From the NCBI GenBank assembly GCA_013327885.1, contig JABUMY010000012.1, positions 62,001 to 126,000 on the forward strand: a DNA stretch of 64,000 nucleotides, read 5' to 3'. Source of the DNA: Flavisolibacter longurius. Its GTDB lineage: Bacteria; Bacteroidota; Bacteroidia; Chitinophagales; Chitinophagaceae. Shown piece after piece: positions 41,895 through 48,366 of the stretch. A model generated the notes under the pieces. It had not been told where the DNA came from. It searched no databases and saw only the letters and a program-made list of their open reading frames with translations. The translations under genes were made by a program, and so were the position numbers. Position 1 is the first letter of the stretch. The number at the start of each line of letters is the position of its first letter.

Positions 41895-43235
41895 TTATTT
41901 CATGAATGATTTAATGTGCTCACCCAAATCAAAAACCGGGACACGGCCATTGATTTTTGAATTTATCAACGAACTTCCTGCAGCACTGCGGTAACCACCG
42001 GCACAATGCACCACGATGGGTTTGTCAGTTGGTATTTCCTCCATTCTTTCCCGCACTTCCGCCAGTGGGATGGAAAGGCTGGTTGGAAATACTTTTCCTT
42101 TTTTTACTTCTGACTCGTTCCGCACATCCACGATGGTGTAATCTTCCGGATGGTTTCGGAAAGCGGCCAGGTCAAGCTGTTCTTCTTTTTCGGTTCCGTT
42201 TTGCACAACAAAACCATTCACAACAACCGTTTCATAACCAATAGCGACTACCCGTTTCAGCATGCGTTGCAACTGCTCTTTGTCTTCGCCTGCAAGGTAA
42301 AAACGTTCGCCGGGTTTCAATATACTGCCCAGCCAGGTTTCAAACTTTCCGTCTTCCATCAGGTTGATCGCATTGGGCAAATGGCCCTCCTTAAACGTGG
42401 ATTCCTTGCGAACATCGATCACCCAAACAGAAGGATCAACACTTGTAGTTTCCTCCAGAATTGAAATATTAGCTAGGCTTTCCGCCATCGGGGCTGCACC
42501 CTTTCGATTTAGTTCCACATCAAAGGGAAAGTAAGCTGGAACAAAAGGCTGGTCGGTCAAAAGGTTGGCCACAAATTCTTCTTCTGTTGCTTCCTGCAGG
42601 CTCCAGTTGGTTTGTTTTTCTTTGCCGATGGTGCTGCTGCTTTCCTTGCTCAGATTTTTTCCGCACAATGTACCAGCGCCATGCGCAGGATAGACGATGA
42701 CGTCATCGCCGAGAACCGCCAGTTTTTCACGAAGCGAATGATACATCTGGCTTGCCAACTCTTCCCGTTTTGCCTGCAGTTTGCCGGCGCCTTCCCGCAG
42801 GTCGGGGCGGCCACAATCACCAACAAACAAGGTATCGCCGGTAAAGACAGCTTTTTGTTTGCCCTCATGTTCCAGCAGGATGCTGATGCTATCCGGTGAG
42901 TGTCCCGGTGTGTTGATAGCCGTTAGTTTTATCTTTCCCAGTTGAACAGATTGTCCTTCATCAAAGCCTTCGTGCGGATAGGCGGCATCAACCAATTTGC
43001 TGGTGTAAATCGCAGCGCCAAGTGTTTGGTAAAGTTCCAAATGCGAGCTGACAAAATCAGCATGCGGATGCGTTTCGATCACACCAACGATCGTTGCTTC
43101 GTTCTGCGCAGCGAAATCGAGGTAGGGTTGTACATCACGGGCCGGGTCAATGAGGATGATTTTCTGCTCACATTCGCTGAGTATTGCGTAACTATAATGC
43201 GAGAGGTTTTTGTCTTCGAATTGTTGAATCTTCAT
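41895..43235 (-). CDS. MBL-fold metallohydrolase with two rhodanese domains (persulfide dioxygenase-like)
   Basis: A 446-residue cytosolic protein. Residues 1-230 are a metallo-beta-lactamase domain of the ETHE1/Blh type: H56 and H58 with D60 in THPHADF, H111 in TPGHS, D133 in TGDTLFVGDCGRPDL and H184 in YPAHGAG. Position 61 is Phe where the HxHxDH pattern has His. Residues 255-345 form a first rhodanese domain without a catalytic Cys (FYLAGEDKEQ in that position). Residues 355-446 form a second with C410 in VVHCAGGYRSA. These fusions oxidise persulfides and move sulfane sulfur. It has its own promoter with a CRP-like dyad 55 bp upstream and is the most distal gene of the sulfur cluster. Confidence 0.92.
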   Translation of the reverse strand: MKIQQFEDKNLSHYSYAILSECEQKIILIDPARDVQPYLDFAAQNEATIVGVIETHPHADFVSSHLELYQTLGAAIYTSKLVDAAYPHEGFDEGQSVQLGKIKLTAINTPGHSPDSISILLEHEGKQKAVFTGDTLFVGDCGRPDLREGAGKLQAKREELASQMYHSLREKLAVLGDDVIVYPAHGAGTLCGKNLSKESSSTIGKEKQTNWSLQEATEEEFVANLLTDQPFVPAYFPFDVELNRKGAAPMAESLANISILEETTSVDPSVWVIDVRKESTFKEGHLPNAINLMEDGKFETWLGSILKPGERFYLAGEDKEQLQRMLKRVVAIGYETVVVNGFVVQNGTEKEEQLDLAAFRNHPEDYTIVDVRNESEVKKGKVFPTSLSIPLAEVRERMEEIPTDKPIVVHCAGGYRSAAGSSLINSKINGRVPVFDLGEHIKSFMK

Positions 43236-43253: not shown

Positions 43254-43299
43254 CAAAAGAAGCGATGTTTTGGAAAACAATCCGTGACCTGAATCACGG
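43254..43299 (-). promoter_or_regulatory. CRP-like operator plus promoter core for the MBL-rhodanese gene
   Basis: CCGTGA-CCTGAA-TCACGG (43282-43299, + strand) is a perfect dyad. Read toward the gene, TTCTTTTG (43254-43261) fits the -7 consensus TAnnTTTG with one mismatch. The dyad centre to the end of TTTG is 37 nt, placing the site near -41, as for CRP class II activation. The ATG follows 18 bases after the core. Confidence 0.7.
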
Positions 43300-43344
43300 A
43301 GGTTTGACAAACTTTTCAGCCTTCTTAAAACTTCATTCTTTCTT

Positions 43345-43902
43345 TTAACGCAACACCTTGCGATATGCTTCGGTATTGTAATCATCACTGCCATCGGTTC
43401 GTTGAAAAAGCCTGCCTTCCTCATCAAAAAAGAACGTGGTAGGAATGGCTTGGACATTGAATAGGGCAGGTAAATTTTCTGCTGGATAATAAATGGGCAG
43501 GGAAAGTTGTTGCCGTTTGGCAAACGCTTTGGCCTTGTCAAAATTGTCATCCAGTGAAAGCAGCACAAACGCCACTTTGTCCTTGTCTACGGACTTTGCC
43601 AGCTTTTCAATGGATGGCATCTCCCGGCGGCAGGGCGGGCACCAGGAAGCCCAGAGGTTGACAAACACTTTTTTTCCTTTGAGGCTTTGCAGGTTAACTG
43701 TTTTTCCATTCACATCCTGCACGGTAAATGAGGGCAGTGTTGTACTGTTTTCATTCGTAGTTGGTGCCGCCGCCGCATTGCTGTCAACATTGATTTGTTG
43801 CTGCACGGCTGTATCTGCACTTTGTTCGTTTGCGCCATCGTTCGAACAGGCTGTCAGTGCCACAGCTAAAAGCGTTGTTGTTCCTATCAAAAATAGTTTC
43901 AT
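43345..43902 (-). CDS. TlpA-like thioredoxin-fold lipoprotein
   Basis: A 185-residue protein starting MKLFLIGTTTLLAVALTAC (lipobox, Cys 19); an ATG eight codons upstream only adds a polar stretch. After a low-complexity Asn/Ala/Thr linker (about 20-52), residues 55-185 form a TlpA/ResA-like thioredoxin domain with the active site WASWCPPC (C88, C91) and the cis-Pro segment QAIPTTFFFDEEG. It would act as a membrane-tethered thiol reductant in the periplasm. It lies 30 bp downstream of a second TlpA-like gene and probably shares the transcript started at the YeeE-type gene. Confidence 0.9.
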   Translation of the reverse strand: MKLFLIGTTTLLAVALTACSNDGANEQSADTAVQQQINVDSNAAAAPTTNENSTTLPSFTVQDVNGKTVNLQSLKGKKVFVNLWASWCPPCRREMPSIEKLAKSVDKDKVAFVLLSLDDNFDKAKAFAKRQQLSLPIYYPAENLPALFNVQAIPTTFFFDEEGRLFQRTDGSDDYNTEAYRKVLR

Positions 43903-43932
43903 GTTGTTTGTTGATCGGTTTACCAAAAGCGT

Positions 43933-44559
43933 TTATAAGAGTGCTTTTAGTTGGTTAATAAAATGGGTGCTGCTGTAGTTGGCAAGGCCTTCCTCTTTAA
44001 AAACTATGTTACCTTCTTTGTTCAAGATAACCGTTGTGGGCAGGGTACCGCTGTAAATTCCGGATGGCACACTACCAGCCCTTGTTACCATGGGCATGGC
44101 GTAGCCTTTTTTCGCCAGGAAATCGACAGCCTTTCCTGCATCCTCGTCTTCATTGATAAAAAGAAAAACAATTCGCTCATCGTCACGAAACTGGTTGTAC
44201 AGATCATTCAGCGACGGCATTTCTGCGATACAGGGCGGACACCAGGTTGCCCAGAAGTTGATGAACACCACTTTGCCTTTTAAATCTGCGGTGGAAACAA
44301 CGGCACCTTTCTCATCATGAAACGAAAAGGCATTGTCTTCCATAGAGCGGGTTGTAGCCAGTGCTTCTTTTTTAATCTCAGCTTTGAACAAGCCAACGGC
44401 CATTAGTTGCTGCAGCACCCAGCCTTTGGCGGCTGGGTTAAAGATCAGTAGCAAAAAAGCGCCGTAAAACAATACGTTGCCGCCGATGCGTAACCACTTC
44501 TTTTTTCCCGTTTGTTTATCACTTATAATATTCATTTCTCCGGGATTCTTATTGAGCAT
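43933..44559 (-). CDS. membrane-anchored TlpA-like thioredoxin-fold protein
   Basis: A 208-residue protein. The start is set at the ATG preceded by AGAGG at a spacing of nine bases; the frame is open back to 44697, but that overlaps the upstream gene. An ATG at 44535 is an alternative. Residues 24-46 form one transmembrane helix (IGGNVLFYGAFLLLIF), and the remainder is a periplasmic thioredoxin fold with NFWATWCPPC (C107, C110) and the cis-Pro segment GTLPTTVILNKEG. It probably donates or accepts electrons from periplasmic sulfur compounds. It is encoded between the YeeE-like half protein and the TlpA lipoprotein. Confidence 0.88.
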   Translation of the reverse strand: MLNKNPGEMNIISDKQTGKKKWLRIGGNVLFYGAFLLLIFNPAAKGWVLQQLMAVGLFKAEIKKEALATTRSMEDNAFSFHDEKGAVVSTADLKGKVVFINFWATWCPPCIAEMPSLNDLYNQFRDDERIVFLFINEDEDAGKAVDFLAKKGYAMPMVTRAGSVPSGIYSGTLPTTVILNKEGNIVFKEEGLANYSSTHFINQLKALL

Positions 44560-44641
44560 TTTTTGTACCTCTTTATTTCCCCGCTGCCTTTTACCAATGG
44601 AATAGGCATTGGTTATAGCAACAGTTTTGAAAGCAAGAGCA

Positions 44642-45178
44642 CTAGTGCGGCAGCCTGTCCCGCAAATACCCATACACCCACGTACCGGCAACAGCACTCA
44701 ATAACACCACGACAATCACCAAAAATCCGGAGCCGATCTGGGCAAACAAGGGTCCGGGACAAGCGCCGGTCATGGCCCAGCCGAGACCAAAGATCAAACC
44801 GCCGTAGATCTGTCCTTTGTTAAATTTCTTCGGGTGAAACTCGATGGCCTCACCATAGATGGTTTTCACCTTGTATTTTTTGATCAGCCATACGGAGATC
44901 ATTCCCACAAAAATCGCGGTTCCAATCACCCCATACATGTGAAAGCTTTGCAGGCGAAACATTTCCTGGATGCGAAACCAGGAGATGATCTCGGCCTTGG
45001 TAAAGGCAATGCCAAAGAGAATACCAACCGCTGCATACTTCAGGTTGTGATACCATTTGTGCTGCAGGTGCGATTCGTTGATGCAAACGGTATCCATCGC
45101 CCTGGCTTCATAGTCCAGGTCTTCAAGCTGCTTTTCAGTTGTCTCTCGCATCGGTATTTTATTTAAAACGCCAGCCAT
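44642..45178 (-). CDS. YeeE/YedE-family half protein (DUF6691 type), sulfur compound transport
   Basis: A 178-residue integral membrane protein. After a polar N-terminus of about 45 residues, there are four likely transmembrane helices (LKYAAVGILFGIAF, MYGVIGTAIFVGMISVWLI, IYGGLIFGLGWAMTGACPGP, LVIVVVLLSAVAGTWVYG). The GACPGP motif holds the conserved Cys of YeeE-type thiosulfate transporters. The full YeeE protein has two such halves; here they are separate genes 13 bp apart (this one and 45192-45755). Known members import thiosulfate or related sulfur species. The long polar N-terminus is probably cytosolic. Confidence 0.87.
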   Translation of the reverse strand: MAGVLNKIPMRETTEKQLEDLDYEARAMDTVCINESHLQHKWYHNLKYAAVGILFGIAFTKAEIISWFRIQEMFRLQSFHMYGVIGTAIFVGMISVWLIKKYKVKTIYGEAIEFHPKKFNKGQIYGGLIFGLGWAMTGACPGPLFAQIGSGFLVIVVVLLSAVAGTWVYGYLRDRLPH

Positions 45179-45191
45179 AGTTGTTCTTGTT

Positions 45192-45755
45192 TTAGAGGTT
45201 TAAAATAAAGGGAAGGATCACATTGGCCATCAGGAAACCACCAGCCATAAAGGCGGCTGTCGCAATCATGGACGGTACCTGCAGGTTGCTGATGCCCATG
45301 ATGGAATGCCCACTGGTACAGCCACCCGCATAACGGGTACCAAAGCCTACGAGAAAGCCACCGCCGACAAGCATGATCAGTCCGCGAAGGGAAAGCAGGC
45401 TTTCCAGGCTAAACAGCTCTTTTGGTAACACGTTCGATGTGTCCTCAATGCCATAACCCTTCAACTCCGATAGTAACGCCGGCGCTACTTGCACCGGTTC
45501 GGGGTTTGCCAGGAATTGGGTTGCCAGGAAACCGCCAATCAAAATGCCGGCAACAAAAAACAGGTTCCAGACTTCTTTCTTCCAGTCATACTTAAAAAAT
45601 TTAATATTAGAAGGAAAACAGGCGGCACAGGCGTGTCGCAGGTTTGCCGAAATACCAAAATGCTTGTTGCCTAAGAGCAACAAGGCTGGTACGGTTAAGC
45701 CCACAAGTGCACCGGCTACATACCAGGGCCAGGGTTGTTTGAGTAGTTCCATCAT
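45192..45755 (-). CDS. YeeE/YedE-family half protein, sulfur compound transport
   Basis: A 187-residue membrane protein with about four to five helices: [58 protein letters not shown] and the last helix near the C-terminus. [11 protein letters not shown] is the conserved Cys motif of YeeE/TsuA-type thiosulfate transporters; a second Cys pair occurs in HACAACFPS. It is the first gene of a four-gene run (both YeeE halves and two TlpA proteins), preceded by a CRP-like operator and promoter core. A double Met start is present; the first is taken. Confidence 0.9.
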
Positions 45756-45775
45756 ATGTGCAATATTTTGTTGTG

Positions 45776-45820
45776 CAAAATTGGTTACCTGTAAAATACG
45801 GCAGCGTGACAGAAATCACG
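45776..45820 (-). promoter_or_regulatory. CRP-like operator plus promoter core for the YeeE-TlpA operon
   Basis: CGTGA-CAGAAA-TCACG (45805-45820) is a perfect dyad. The promoter core CAATTTTG (45776-45783, read on the - strand) fits TAnnTTTG except its first base. The centre-to-TTTG-end distance is 37 nt, identical to the other two sites. The ATG lies 20 bases after the core. Confidence 0.7.
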
Positions 45821-45985
45821 GGCCAAGACAGGAAGACTTTATTTTTTCTTAAGGGTTGGACAAAAGGGTTCTGTTATTAGTTCCAAATTAAGCTGTCCGG
45901 TTTTCATGCTGTCATATTTCGTTAATGAAAAAACGCAACGTTATCGATATTCATTCCTGACAATGGATATGCTATAACCGGTCAC

Positions 45986-46783
45986 TTATTTCAATACCGT
46001 CTCTTTTAACAGGATGTAGATACCCATCACCAGCACAAACCAGCCAAAGCCTTTTTTGAGTTTGTCGCCGGGTATCTTTTTATTCAGGGCACCACCAATA
46101 AAAATGCCGGTAATGGCAATGGCTGTTATCGTTAGCAGAAAGGTCCAGTTTATGGCGAAATGCCCCAGGTCGCCGGTAAAACCGATGAGTGAATTCAGTG
46201 CAATGATCATCAGCGATGTCCCGATGGCTTTTTTCATGGGAAGTTTGAGCAGGAGCACAAGGGCAGGGATCAACAAAAAGCCGCCGCCGGCGCCAAGAAA
46301 ACCGGTGACAAGCCCAATGGCAATGCCGTAAAAAACAAGCTTGCCAAAACGGATGCAATCCAGGCATTCTTTTTCTTCTGCATTTACTTTTTTGGTGCGG
46401 ATCATACTGATAGAAGCCACCAGCATGAGCACAGCAAAAAGCACCATAGTAAGAAAGGGTTCTGTGATGGTGACGCCGTTTATGGTAGCGATGTCTTTGG
46501 GAATAACCGGTACGATGAATTTGCGGGTGAAGAAAACGGTAACAAACGAAGATGCTCCAAATAACAACGCGGCTTTTATATTGACCAATCCTTTGCGGAA
46601 ATTGGAGTAAGCACCCACCAGGCTTGTAGAGCCCACAACAAAAAGCGAGTACGAGGTTGCCAGCAGGGGCTGCAATCCAAAAAGGTAAACCATCACCGGC
46701 ACCGTCAGGATGGAACCACCGCCACCTATCAGTCCCAGCGAAATGCCAATCAGCAGCGAAGCGATGTACCCGATAATCTCCAT
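45986..46783 (-). CDS. TauE/SafE family sulfite/anion exporter
   Basis: A 265-residue membrane protein starting MEIIGYIASLLIGISLGLIG. An in-frame GTG 27 bases upstream lies inside the promoter core and is rejected. The two TauE repeats are seen: GISLGLIGGGGSILTVP in the first half and GLVTGFLGAGGGFLLIPAL in the second, with about eight transmembrane helices overall. A charged loop between them has Cys residues (EEKECLDCIRFG). Family members export sulfite, sulfoacetate or other organosulfur anions. It stands apart from the YeeE genes but shares the same operator type, which ties it to the sulfur cluster. Confidence 0.9.
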   Translation of the reverse strand: MEIIGYIASLLIGISLGLIGGGGSILTVPVMVYLFGLQPLLATSYSLFVVGSTSLVGAYSNFRKGLVNIKAALLFGASSFVTVFFTRKFIVPVIPKDIATINGVTITEPFLTMVLFAVLMLVASISMIRTKKVNAEEKECLDCIRFGKLVFYGIAIGLVTGFLGAGGGFLLIPALVLLLKLPMKKAIGTSLMIIALNSLIGFTGDLGHFAINWTFLLTITAIAITGIFIGGALNKKIPGDKLKKGFGWFVLVMGIYILLKETVLK

Positions 46784-46800
46784 GGCATTCAATTTACGTG

Positions 46801-46845
46801 CAAACTTCACACAAGCCCGGCGCTTTTTTCGTGATACAGGTCACG
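46801..46845 (-). promoter_or_regulatory. CRP-like operator plus promoter core for the TauE/SafE gene
   Basis: CGTGA-TACAGG-TCACG (46830-46845) is a perfect dyad. The core GAAGTTTG (46801-46808, - strand) matches TAnnTTTG except its first base. Centre to TTTG end is 37 nt, as at the other two sites, and the core is followed by CAC as in the YeeE promoter. The ATG at 46783 follows 17 bases later. Confidence 0.7.
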
Positions 46846-47040: not shown

Positions 47041-47685
47041 TCAGAAAAACTGGTCCAAATTCACCAACTCCACGTGTGAACCCATCAGCTTCACCACGCC
47101 TTTATCCGCCAGTTTGCGCATCAAGCGGGATATCACTTCGCGGGAAGAATTCAGTTCCTGTGCCATTTCTGTAAACGAAAGATCAATGTGGGCCGTTTTA
47201 AACTGTTGCTGGTAACGCTTCAGGTAAAAAACCAGGCGTTCGTCCATGTTCCGAAAGGCAATATGATCGATGGTTTGCAGGAGTTCATCAAACCGCTCCC
47301 GGTAAGAGCTCACGGCAAACTGTGCCCAACTTTTATACTTACCCATCCATTCGTCCACGTAGTGCAAGGGAATGCTGATCAATGTTGATCCGGTCACAGC
47401 TTTTGCCATCAGCCCGCTGGTTTCCTGTCCAAGCGCACAAACCAGTGAAATGGCACAGGCCTTCCCCGAGTCGATGTAATACATAAAGAACTCGCTGCCC
47501 TGCTCGTCTTCGCGGTAAATTTTCACAGTGCCATCCAGCACCAGCAAGGCAGAACGAATGTTTTGCCCGGTACGCATGAGCAACTCACCTGCTGCTAAGG
47601 TTTTTACATCCGCCACCTTGATAATCTCTGCTACCAGGGCTTTTTCAAGTGAAGGAAAATGTTTCGCCAGTTCTTGTTCCGTCAT
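47041..47685 (-). CDS. Crp/Fnr family transcriptional regulator
   Basis: A 214-residue protein started at the ATG of MTEQELAKHFPSLEK; a longer frame from 47742 adds 19 residues of no family character and overlaps a palindrome. Residues 1-130 are a cyclic-nucleotide-binding-like effector domain with Cys at 77 and 83 (KACAISLVCALGQ) that could be a thiol sensor. Residues 140-214 are a winged helix; the recognition helix has REVISR (R182, E183, R187), matching the Arg-Glu-x-x-x-Arg with which E. coli CRP reads GTGA. The same GTGA-N6-TCAC pattern occurs at three promoters just downstream, so it very probably controls them. Confidence 0.9.
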   Translation of the reverse strand: MTEQELAKHFPSLEKALVAEIIKVADVKTLAAGELLMRTGQNIRSALLVLDGTVKIYREDEQGSEFFMYYIDSGKACAISLVCALGQETSGLMAKAVTGSTLISIPLHYVDEWMGKYKSWAQFAVSSYRERFDELLQTIDHIAFRNMDERLVFYLKRYQQQFKTAHIDLSFTEMAQELNSSREVISRLMRKLADKGVVKLMGSHVELVNLDQFF

Positions 47686-48048
47686 ATCTACAAAGGTAGC
47701 CCCAGGTGCTGAGGGTAAGTGACTTTCGTCTCGCTGCAACATTGCAGCCTGATTTACTTTCGCAGGATGGCCCTTTGTATTGCATCCAGAAAAGACATTT
47801 TAGACTATGTTTTGGCTTTTGCTGGCTAATTGAGCAGAAAGAACCTAACAACAGTGGGATGCCAGTATTGCAAAAATGTAAAGACGTTTGGCGAATGCTT
47901 TAAACACACCACTCAGGATTTTGCGTCTGTTCAACAATAAAATTGCTGGAATACCTTGTTCGAGGATTCACTAGCCCTTATGGTGTAGAATTATTTGATA
48001 AAGGAAACGATTTATCCTGGAGTAGCAGCTAACTGTGATCGCTTACAA
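47686..48048. other. intergenic region between the Crp/Fnr gene and the tRNA genes
   Basis: About 360 bp without a gene. On the - strand TACCTTTG (47691-47698), a perfect -7 match, lies only five bases before the regulator's ATG, implying a very short or absent leader if used. GCTGCAA-CA-TTGCAGC (47733-47748) is a perfect 7-bp-arm dyad 48 bp upstream of that ATG and may be an autoregulatory site. Nothing else is recognised up to the tRNA terminator. Confidence 0.45.
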
Positions 48049-48087: not shown

Positions 48088-48099
48088 TTTGTTTTTGTG

Positions 48100-48185
48100 T
48101 GCCCCGGATCGGACTTGAACCGATACTCGCATTGCTGCGAACAGGATTTTAAGTCCTGCGTGTCTACCAATTTCACCACCAGGGC
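48100..48185 (-). tRNA. tRNA-Leu (anticodon TAA)
   Basis: An 86-nt cloverleaf on the - strand. The acceptor stem GCCCUGG/CCGGGGC pairs with one G-U; the D arm has GGUGAAAUUGGUAGAC; the anticodon stem CAGGA/UCCUG encloses CUUAAAA with anticodon UAA. A long variable arm (CGCAGCAAUGCG) typical of tRNA-Leu and a T arm with UUCAAGU follow. The discriminator is A and CCA is not encoded. Confidence 0.95.
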
Positions 48186-48260
48186 AGGTGAAGAGAACAA
48201 CAGGTGAACAAGCATCAAATTACTAAAAGATCTGTGCTTTGTACGACAGTTGTTCGTAAA

Positions 48261-48290
48261 AAAAATCCTCCGCAGTGGGAGGATCTTTTT
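48261..48290 (-). terminator. intrinsic terminator between the two tRNA genes
   Basis: ATCCTCC and GGAGGAT form a perfect 7-bp stem with a six-base loop, flanked by A- and T-runs. On the - strand it is followed by a run of T after tRNA-Gly. Confidence 0.75.
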
Positions 48291-48293
48291 GTG

Positions 48294-48366
48294 AGCGGAA
48301 GACGAGATTCGAACCCGCGACCTCAACCTTGGCAAGGTTGCGCTCTACCAGCTGAGCTACTTCCGC
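48294..48366 (-). tRNA. tRNA-Gly (anticodon GCC)
   Basis: A 73-nt cloverleaf on the - strand. The acceptor GCGGAAG/CUUCCGC is perfect, the D arm is UAGCUCAGCUGGUAGAGC, the anticodon loop is within CAACCUUGCCAAGGUUG (anticodon GCC), and the T arm is CGGGUUCGAAUCUCG. The discriminator is U, usual for tRNA-Gly. CCA is not encoded. Confidence 0.97.

Follow-up and report, generated by a model that had tools for sequence, protein, structure and literature searches.

Three equally spaced dyads upstream of sulfur genes in Flavisolibacter longurius are probably operators of the adjacent Crp/Fnr-type regulator

The window studied here, a 64,000-nucleotide stretch of Flavisolibacter longurius DNA, carries a minus-strand cluster of sulfur genes beside a gene for a Crp/Fnr-type regulator, and its initial annotation reported a CGTGA-N6-TCACG dyad upstream of each of three transcripts of the cluster. 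This raises the question of whether these dyads are operators of the neighboring regulator and, if so, how it acts on them. The dyads themselves were confirmed. From sequence comparison, we consider it likely, at a probability of about 85%, that they are operators of the neighboring regulator, which would most likely bring about class II activation of sulfur detoxification genes.

All three dyads matched exactly (Table 1) and were the only matches in the window with zero or one mismatch; at up to two mismatches, 17 matches stood against 18.7 expected. On the minus strand, TTTG lay exactly 25 nucleotides (nt) past the dyad in all three promoters, which places the dyad center 36.5 nt from the G of TTTG in each case (G at 43254, 45776, and 46801), in line with the identical spacing reported before. 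The CRC said to follow the core was found as CGC, CAC, and CAC, respectively. The nAnnTTTG core itself was correct for the second and third promoters (CAATTTTG and GAAGTTTG) but not for the first (TTCTTTTG), which lacks the A. Chance had been called an unlikely origin. Indeed, in 300 dinucleotide shuffles of the window, exact dyads averaged 0.04, with a maximum of 2, against the 3 observed, and GTGA-N6-TCAC-N26-TTTG, also present three times, averaged 0.007, with a maximum of 1.

We then scanned the 5.75-Mb genome, with the dyad pattern read backwards as a control. Seven exact dyads were found, three of them the window's, versus one in the control. A scan of the kind proposed in the initial annotation, for GTGA-N6-TCAC with TTTG at a gap of 24 to 26, returned five places, including the window's three operators (control, 1). 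The relaxed form GTGA-Y-N4-R-TYAC, with TTTG or TTTA required at the exact gap, returned four, again including those three (control, 0); by eye, the fourth appears to lie within a reading frame. The four exact dyads outside the window (L004 to L007) were rejected as promoters, having no TTTG at the spacing and not looking promoter-like by eye. Dyads with one mismatch were not enriched genome-wide (97 versus 117 in the control), as would fit an origin in chance or base composition. That explanation is refuted by the excess of exact dyads in the genome and over the window shuffles and by the conservation at fixed spacing described below, and we give it practically no credence.

Conservation in relatives had been set beforehand as a test. 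Relatives were the best 80 of 585 yeeE loci from genome contigs together with genus and order relatives, and in them dyad and spacing recurred upstream of tauE, MBL (metallo-beta-lactamase), and yeeE homologues. Regulators were sorted by position 183, the equivalent of Escherichia coli CRP Glu181, which was mainly Glu or Val (73 Glu, 40 Val, and 2 Ala types). A de novo dyad search of close Glu-type loci (arms of 4 to 5 nt, spacers of 4 to 10 nt) ranked GTGA-N6-TCAC top, in 51/103 upstream regions versus 3.1 expected. Counted by regulator class, with the window's own locus (L096) omitted, GTGA dyads occurred in 50/99 upstream regions of close Glu types and 7/12 of distant Glu types, versus 1/100 and 0/17 of Val types; eight rearranged control dyads gave one match altogether. 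With close Glu-type regulators, the dyad was present upstream of tauE in 23/26 cases, mbl in 14/25, crp in 6/27, and yeeE1 in 5/21. The top dyad of Val-type loci, AATTT-N5-AAATT, was dropped, being limited to a few related loci and without fixed spacing.

The distance to the promoter box was conserved as well. For 50/79 dyads, the gap to TTTG was 25 or 26 (2,000 shuffles gave no more than 5), and a sweep of gaps from 15 to 35 upstream of tauE, MBL, yeeE, and crp homologues across Bacteroidota peaked sharply at 25, with 33/116 Glu-type and 46/109 Val-type regions, falling to 12 and 1 at 26 and to at most 5 elsewhere. Gap 26 belongs to a set of loci including Saprospiraceae and was constant within loci having several TTTG sites (e.g., L020 and L034). 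The available part of a transcription start map of Flavobacterium psychrophilum (PMC9723704) places TAnnTTTG at -12 to -5. With the G of the box at -5, a further 36.5 nt put the dyad center at -41.5 from the predicted start, a class II site, and agree with the position near -41 given in the initial annotation. The leaders would be approximately 14, 16, and 10 nt long. The nucleotides separating the dyad from the -7 box held little information, which is consistent with an activator in place of a -33 contact.

In one respect, this position counts against our reading, as a repressor would also be workable at -41.5. The regulator could be a repressor released by sulfide or persulfide, like BigR, SqrR, and CstR; the dyad overlies the -33 region, and according to the available parts of PMC7315123 and PMC9774590 the proteins known to control comparable operons are in many cases repressors. 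However, the arrangement seen over many genomes, with one fixed gap of 25 (or of 26 in one lineage set) and little information between the dyad and the box, is as class II activation requires. Repressors usually tolerate varied positions, and we judge repression unlikely here.

The assignment of the sites to the adjacent Crp/Fnr gene was supported by linkage and, above all, by covariation between residue 183 and one operator base. The dyads found with Glu types read GTGA-N6-TCAC, and those found with Val types, in the identical position, read GTAA-N6-TTAC. Val types such as those of Pedobacter and Chryseobacterium gave no dyad in the GTGA search, yet they had TGTAAC-N4-GTTACA-like sites at the same genes and at gap 25. 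Among the anchored dyads, base x of the left-hand GTxA was A in 54/54 Val-type and G in 57/60 Glu-type cases; by half-site, Val types had 84 A and 3 G, and Glu types had 205 G and 21 A. The Val type thus appears strict, and the Glu type appears to tolerate one A half-site. Hybrid operators at gap 25, pairing a GTGA half-site with one of the GTAA type, were seen with Glu-type regulators in loci L252, L253, L258, L259, L262, L263, and L293. In several Val-type loci (including L016, L019, L022, and L029), the operator before tauE seems, by eye, to overlap the regulator stop codon.

Residue and operator agreed for 93 of the 94 scorable regulators among 115, the others being 2 Ala types, 14 without an operator, and 5 ties (L141, L145, L160, L165, and L167). 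After enlargement by 60 loci, concordance was 114/117 (two of the 60 carried a pair of regulators each, and among the remaining 58, 32 were tied or yielded no call). L265 and L276 each hold a Val and a Glu regulator as well as operators of the GTAA and the GTGA kind, and are natural tests of cross-talk. In E. coli CRP, Arg185 and Glu181 recognize G4:C4 of TGTGA (PMC11253593, available part). The base pair read by Glu181 is the same one that changes between Glu- and Val-type operators. Exchange of Glu181 in CRP is classically known to alter specificity at this base pair in the laboratory.

Closely related sequences are not independent, and trees built without the recognition helix gave three to four residue changes. 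The trees and the enlarged count omit three long branches, L055, L103, and L180, all of them concordant. Independent Glu/Val pairs on supported branches were concordant in 3/3 cases in the first tree, and in the enlarged trees, on average, 2.8 independent pairs were concordant and 0.2 were without a difference. L134 is a well-placed Val type within the Glu clade (100/97); the placement of L105, a Glu type surrounded by Val types, is weak in the careful tree.

Linkage was surveyed in 148 genomes of the order, where the strict promoter pattern occurred 217 times versus 40 for the control. The 24 genomes with a regulator homologue of at least 43% identity held 64 sites versus 9 for the control; a homologue goes with more sites. 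Of those 64 sites, 58 were listed, from 21 genomes; 27 of the 58, the window's three included, were no more than 12 kb away from the homologue, and these came from 15 of the 21 genomes. The cut-offs for identity and distance were chosen after the table was seen. Furthermore, six loci had GTGA dyads without a local regulator, and the genomes of all six encode a Glu type at another place. The dyads might also be real operators of another Crp/Fnr protein of this genome, which has six HTH_Crp_2 matches at E ≤ 0.001, two of them over the cut-off, and, by eye, at least one further Glu-type helix (GVSRETLSRL in L123); operators above control where a close homologue is absent point the same way. Yet in the enlarged count the operator letter tracks the residue found in the homologue that is linked or lies nearest, and many listed sites lie near that homologue, and we hold another protein to be quite improbable.

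Several further observations weigh against control by the neighboring regulator. The 77 genomes with a homologue below 35% identity, or none, still held 61 sites versus 16 for the control, which indicates that this operator type also serves other regulators, and in some genomes whose Glu type is encoded apart from the yeeE locus, that locus lacks a strict dyad (e.g., L032 and L093). The covariation has exceptions in L133 (whose genome also has a Val type, L152), L244, and L294, besides the ties listed above and more after enlargement, and with about three independent Glu/Val switches a sign test cannot reach 0.05. Under close Glu-type regulators, the strict dyad was absent at tauE in 3/26 cases, mbl in 11/25, yeeE1 in 16/21, and crp in 21/27; some of these genes may be read from an upstream promoter. 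Finally, 25/79 dyads had no TTTG at gap 24 to 26; in several dyads without TTTG, TTTA replaces it at the same place. Overall, the comparisons support the interpretation first given to this locus, with the regulon probably of a persulfide/thiosulfate kind and the regulator probably a local Crp/Fnr-type class II activator.

We next considered what kind of Crp/Fnr protein this is. It scored above the cut-offs for a cNMP_binding-type domain (33.3 bits, cut-off 27.5) and for HTH_Crp_2 (35.6 bits, cut-off 27) but far below those of the cAMP-activated CRP equivalog model (34.5 bits, cut-off 266) and the FNR model (33.9 bits, cut-off 228). Its 214 residues include two cysteines only, Cys77 and Cys83, as against the four cluster-binding cysteines of an iron-sulfur FNR. 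For these reasons, we take it to be neither CRP nor an iron-sulfur FNR. Among the 115 regulators, Arg182 and Arg187 were invariant and Cys77 was present in 114, while Cys83 was present in 65/73 Glu types, 12/40 Val types, and 0/2 Ala types. The sole regulator without Cys77, in L103, also lacks Cys83, and neither tauE nor mbl was detected within the 3.6 kb of its locus. Cysteine-based persulfide sensors have a conserved dithiol pair, which forms persulfide or polysulfide bridges. Located in the former nucleotide pocket, Cys77 is a fair candidate for a persulfide sensor, although it may be structural instead. In the available part of an Acinetobacter baumannii study, a Crp-like protein is heavily persulfidated, with unknown effect.

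As for the genes under these promoters (Table 1), the MBL-rhodanese product is probably a persulfide dioxygenase/sulfurtransferase. A dimer of the regulator would sit on each dyad, centered near -41.5, substitute for the -33 element, and activate transcription as class II CRP does, most likely upon a rise of reduced sulfur species. This would switch on persulfide oxidation through the MBL-rhodanese protein, thiosulfate or sulfane-sulfur transport and thiol redox reactions through the YeeE pair and the TlpA proteins, and sulfite or thiosulfate export through TauE/SafE, these being predicted functions. In a Sphingobacteriales metagenome-assembled genome (L047), rhodaneses, a thioredoxin, and a SoxA/TsdA-like cytochrome c lie between mbl and yeeE1 in the same regulon, which points to thiosulfate as well as persulfide.

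Table 1. Positions of the operators, promoter boxes, and genes in the window
Feature	Coordinates	Strand	Description
Operator 1, CGTGACCTGAATCACG	43283..43298	.	Exact dyad match, upstream of MBL-rhodanese gene
Operator 2, CGTGACAGAAATCACG	45805..45820	.	Exact dyad match, upstream of YeeE-YeeE-TlpA-TlpA genes
Operator 3, CGTGATACAGGTCACG	46830..46845	.	Exact dyad match, upstream of tauE
-7 box, TTCTTTTG	43254..43261	-	Predicted transcription start ~43249; box position from PMC9723704 (available part)
-7 box, CAATTTTG	45776..45783	-	Predicted transcription start ~45771
-7 box, GAAGTTTG	46801..46808	-	Predicted transcription start ~46796
MBL fold with two rhodanese stretches	41895..43235	-	Pfam Lactamase_B, Rhodanese
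TlpA/ResA-like thioredoxin-fold protein (redoxin)	43345..43902	-	Pfam and curated-model scan
TlpA/ResA-like thioredoxin-fold protein (redoxin)	43933..44559	-	Pfam and curated-model scan
YeeE/YedE-type transporter half 2 (DUF6691/Sulf_transp)	44642..45178	-	Pfam
YeeE/YedE-type transporter half 1 (Sulf_transp)	45192..45755	-	Pfam
TauE/SafE exporter	45986..46786	-	Pfam TauE, 145.9 bits
Crp/Fnr-type regulator, 214 residues	47041..47685	-	Recognition helix SSREVISRLMRKL with Arg182, Glu183, Arg187; Cys77 and Cys83

Upstream of crp in the window, the best site had two mismatches and a gap of 23, and autoregulation is therefore not claimed; exact sites precede crp in L047 and L082, at gap 24. The gene has a perfect TACCTTTG box at 47691-47698, ending 6 nt before the ATG at 47685, and its mRNA would be nearly leaderless if the start sits at the usual position relative to the box. 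Genes for tRNA-Leu and tRNA-Gly lie upstream of it on the minus strand (48099-48366).

If our reading holds, Bacteroidota gain a candidate sulfur stress regulon under Crp/Fnr control, while the sulfide responses in the literature covered use other families, as well as a natural, testable record of a regulator and its operator set shifting specificity together through one residue and one base pair. A broader proposal, that a phylum-wide branch of Crp/Fnr proteins in Bacteroidota senses persulfide or polysulfide at Cys77 (often with Cys83), activates sulfur detoxification promoters, and has repeatedly swapped specificity by Glu/Val together with G/A in every operator while keeping promoter geometry, is tentative, and we would put it at somewhat less than even odds. 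A search of one open library, in which the slash spelling weakened some of the phrase matching, listed no publication describing Crp/Fnr control of such a cluster in Bacteroidota.

According to the available part of PMC7315123, BigR/SqrR, CstR, and FisR control similar genes, for persulfide dioxygenase, YeeE/YedE, and TauE. Those regulators belong to the ArsR, CsoR, and sigma-54 activator families, respectively, whereas the regulator here is of the Crp/Fnr type. The nearest solved relatives by sequence, both of that family, are PDB 3dv8 (E = 3.3e-10), which shares the Cys-x5-Cys spacing in the alignment, and Pseudomonas aeruginosa DNR (E = 2.9e-7); similarity to both is low, and their regulons are different or unknown. 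With class II E. coli CRP, the present system has in common the TGTGA-type dyad with a 6-nt spacer, the Arg-Glu-x-x-x-Arg recognition helix, and the predicted center at -41.5. It differs in that the regulon is a local sulfur regulon, the first operator base is C or T (C in the window's operators), the helix motif ends in Ser-Arg instead of Gly-Arg, and the sigma factor is one with a TAnnTTTG box.

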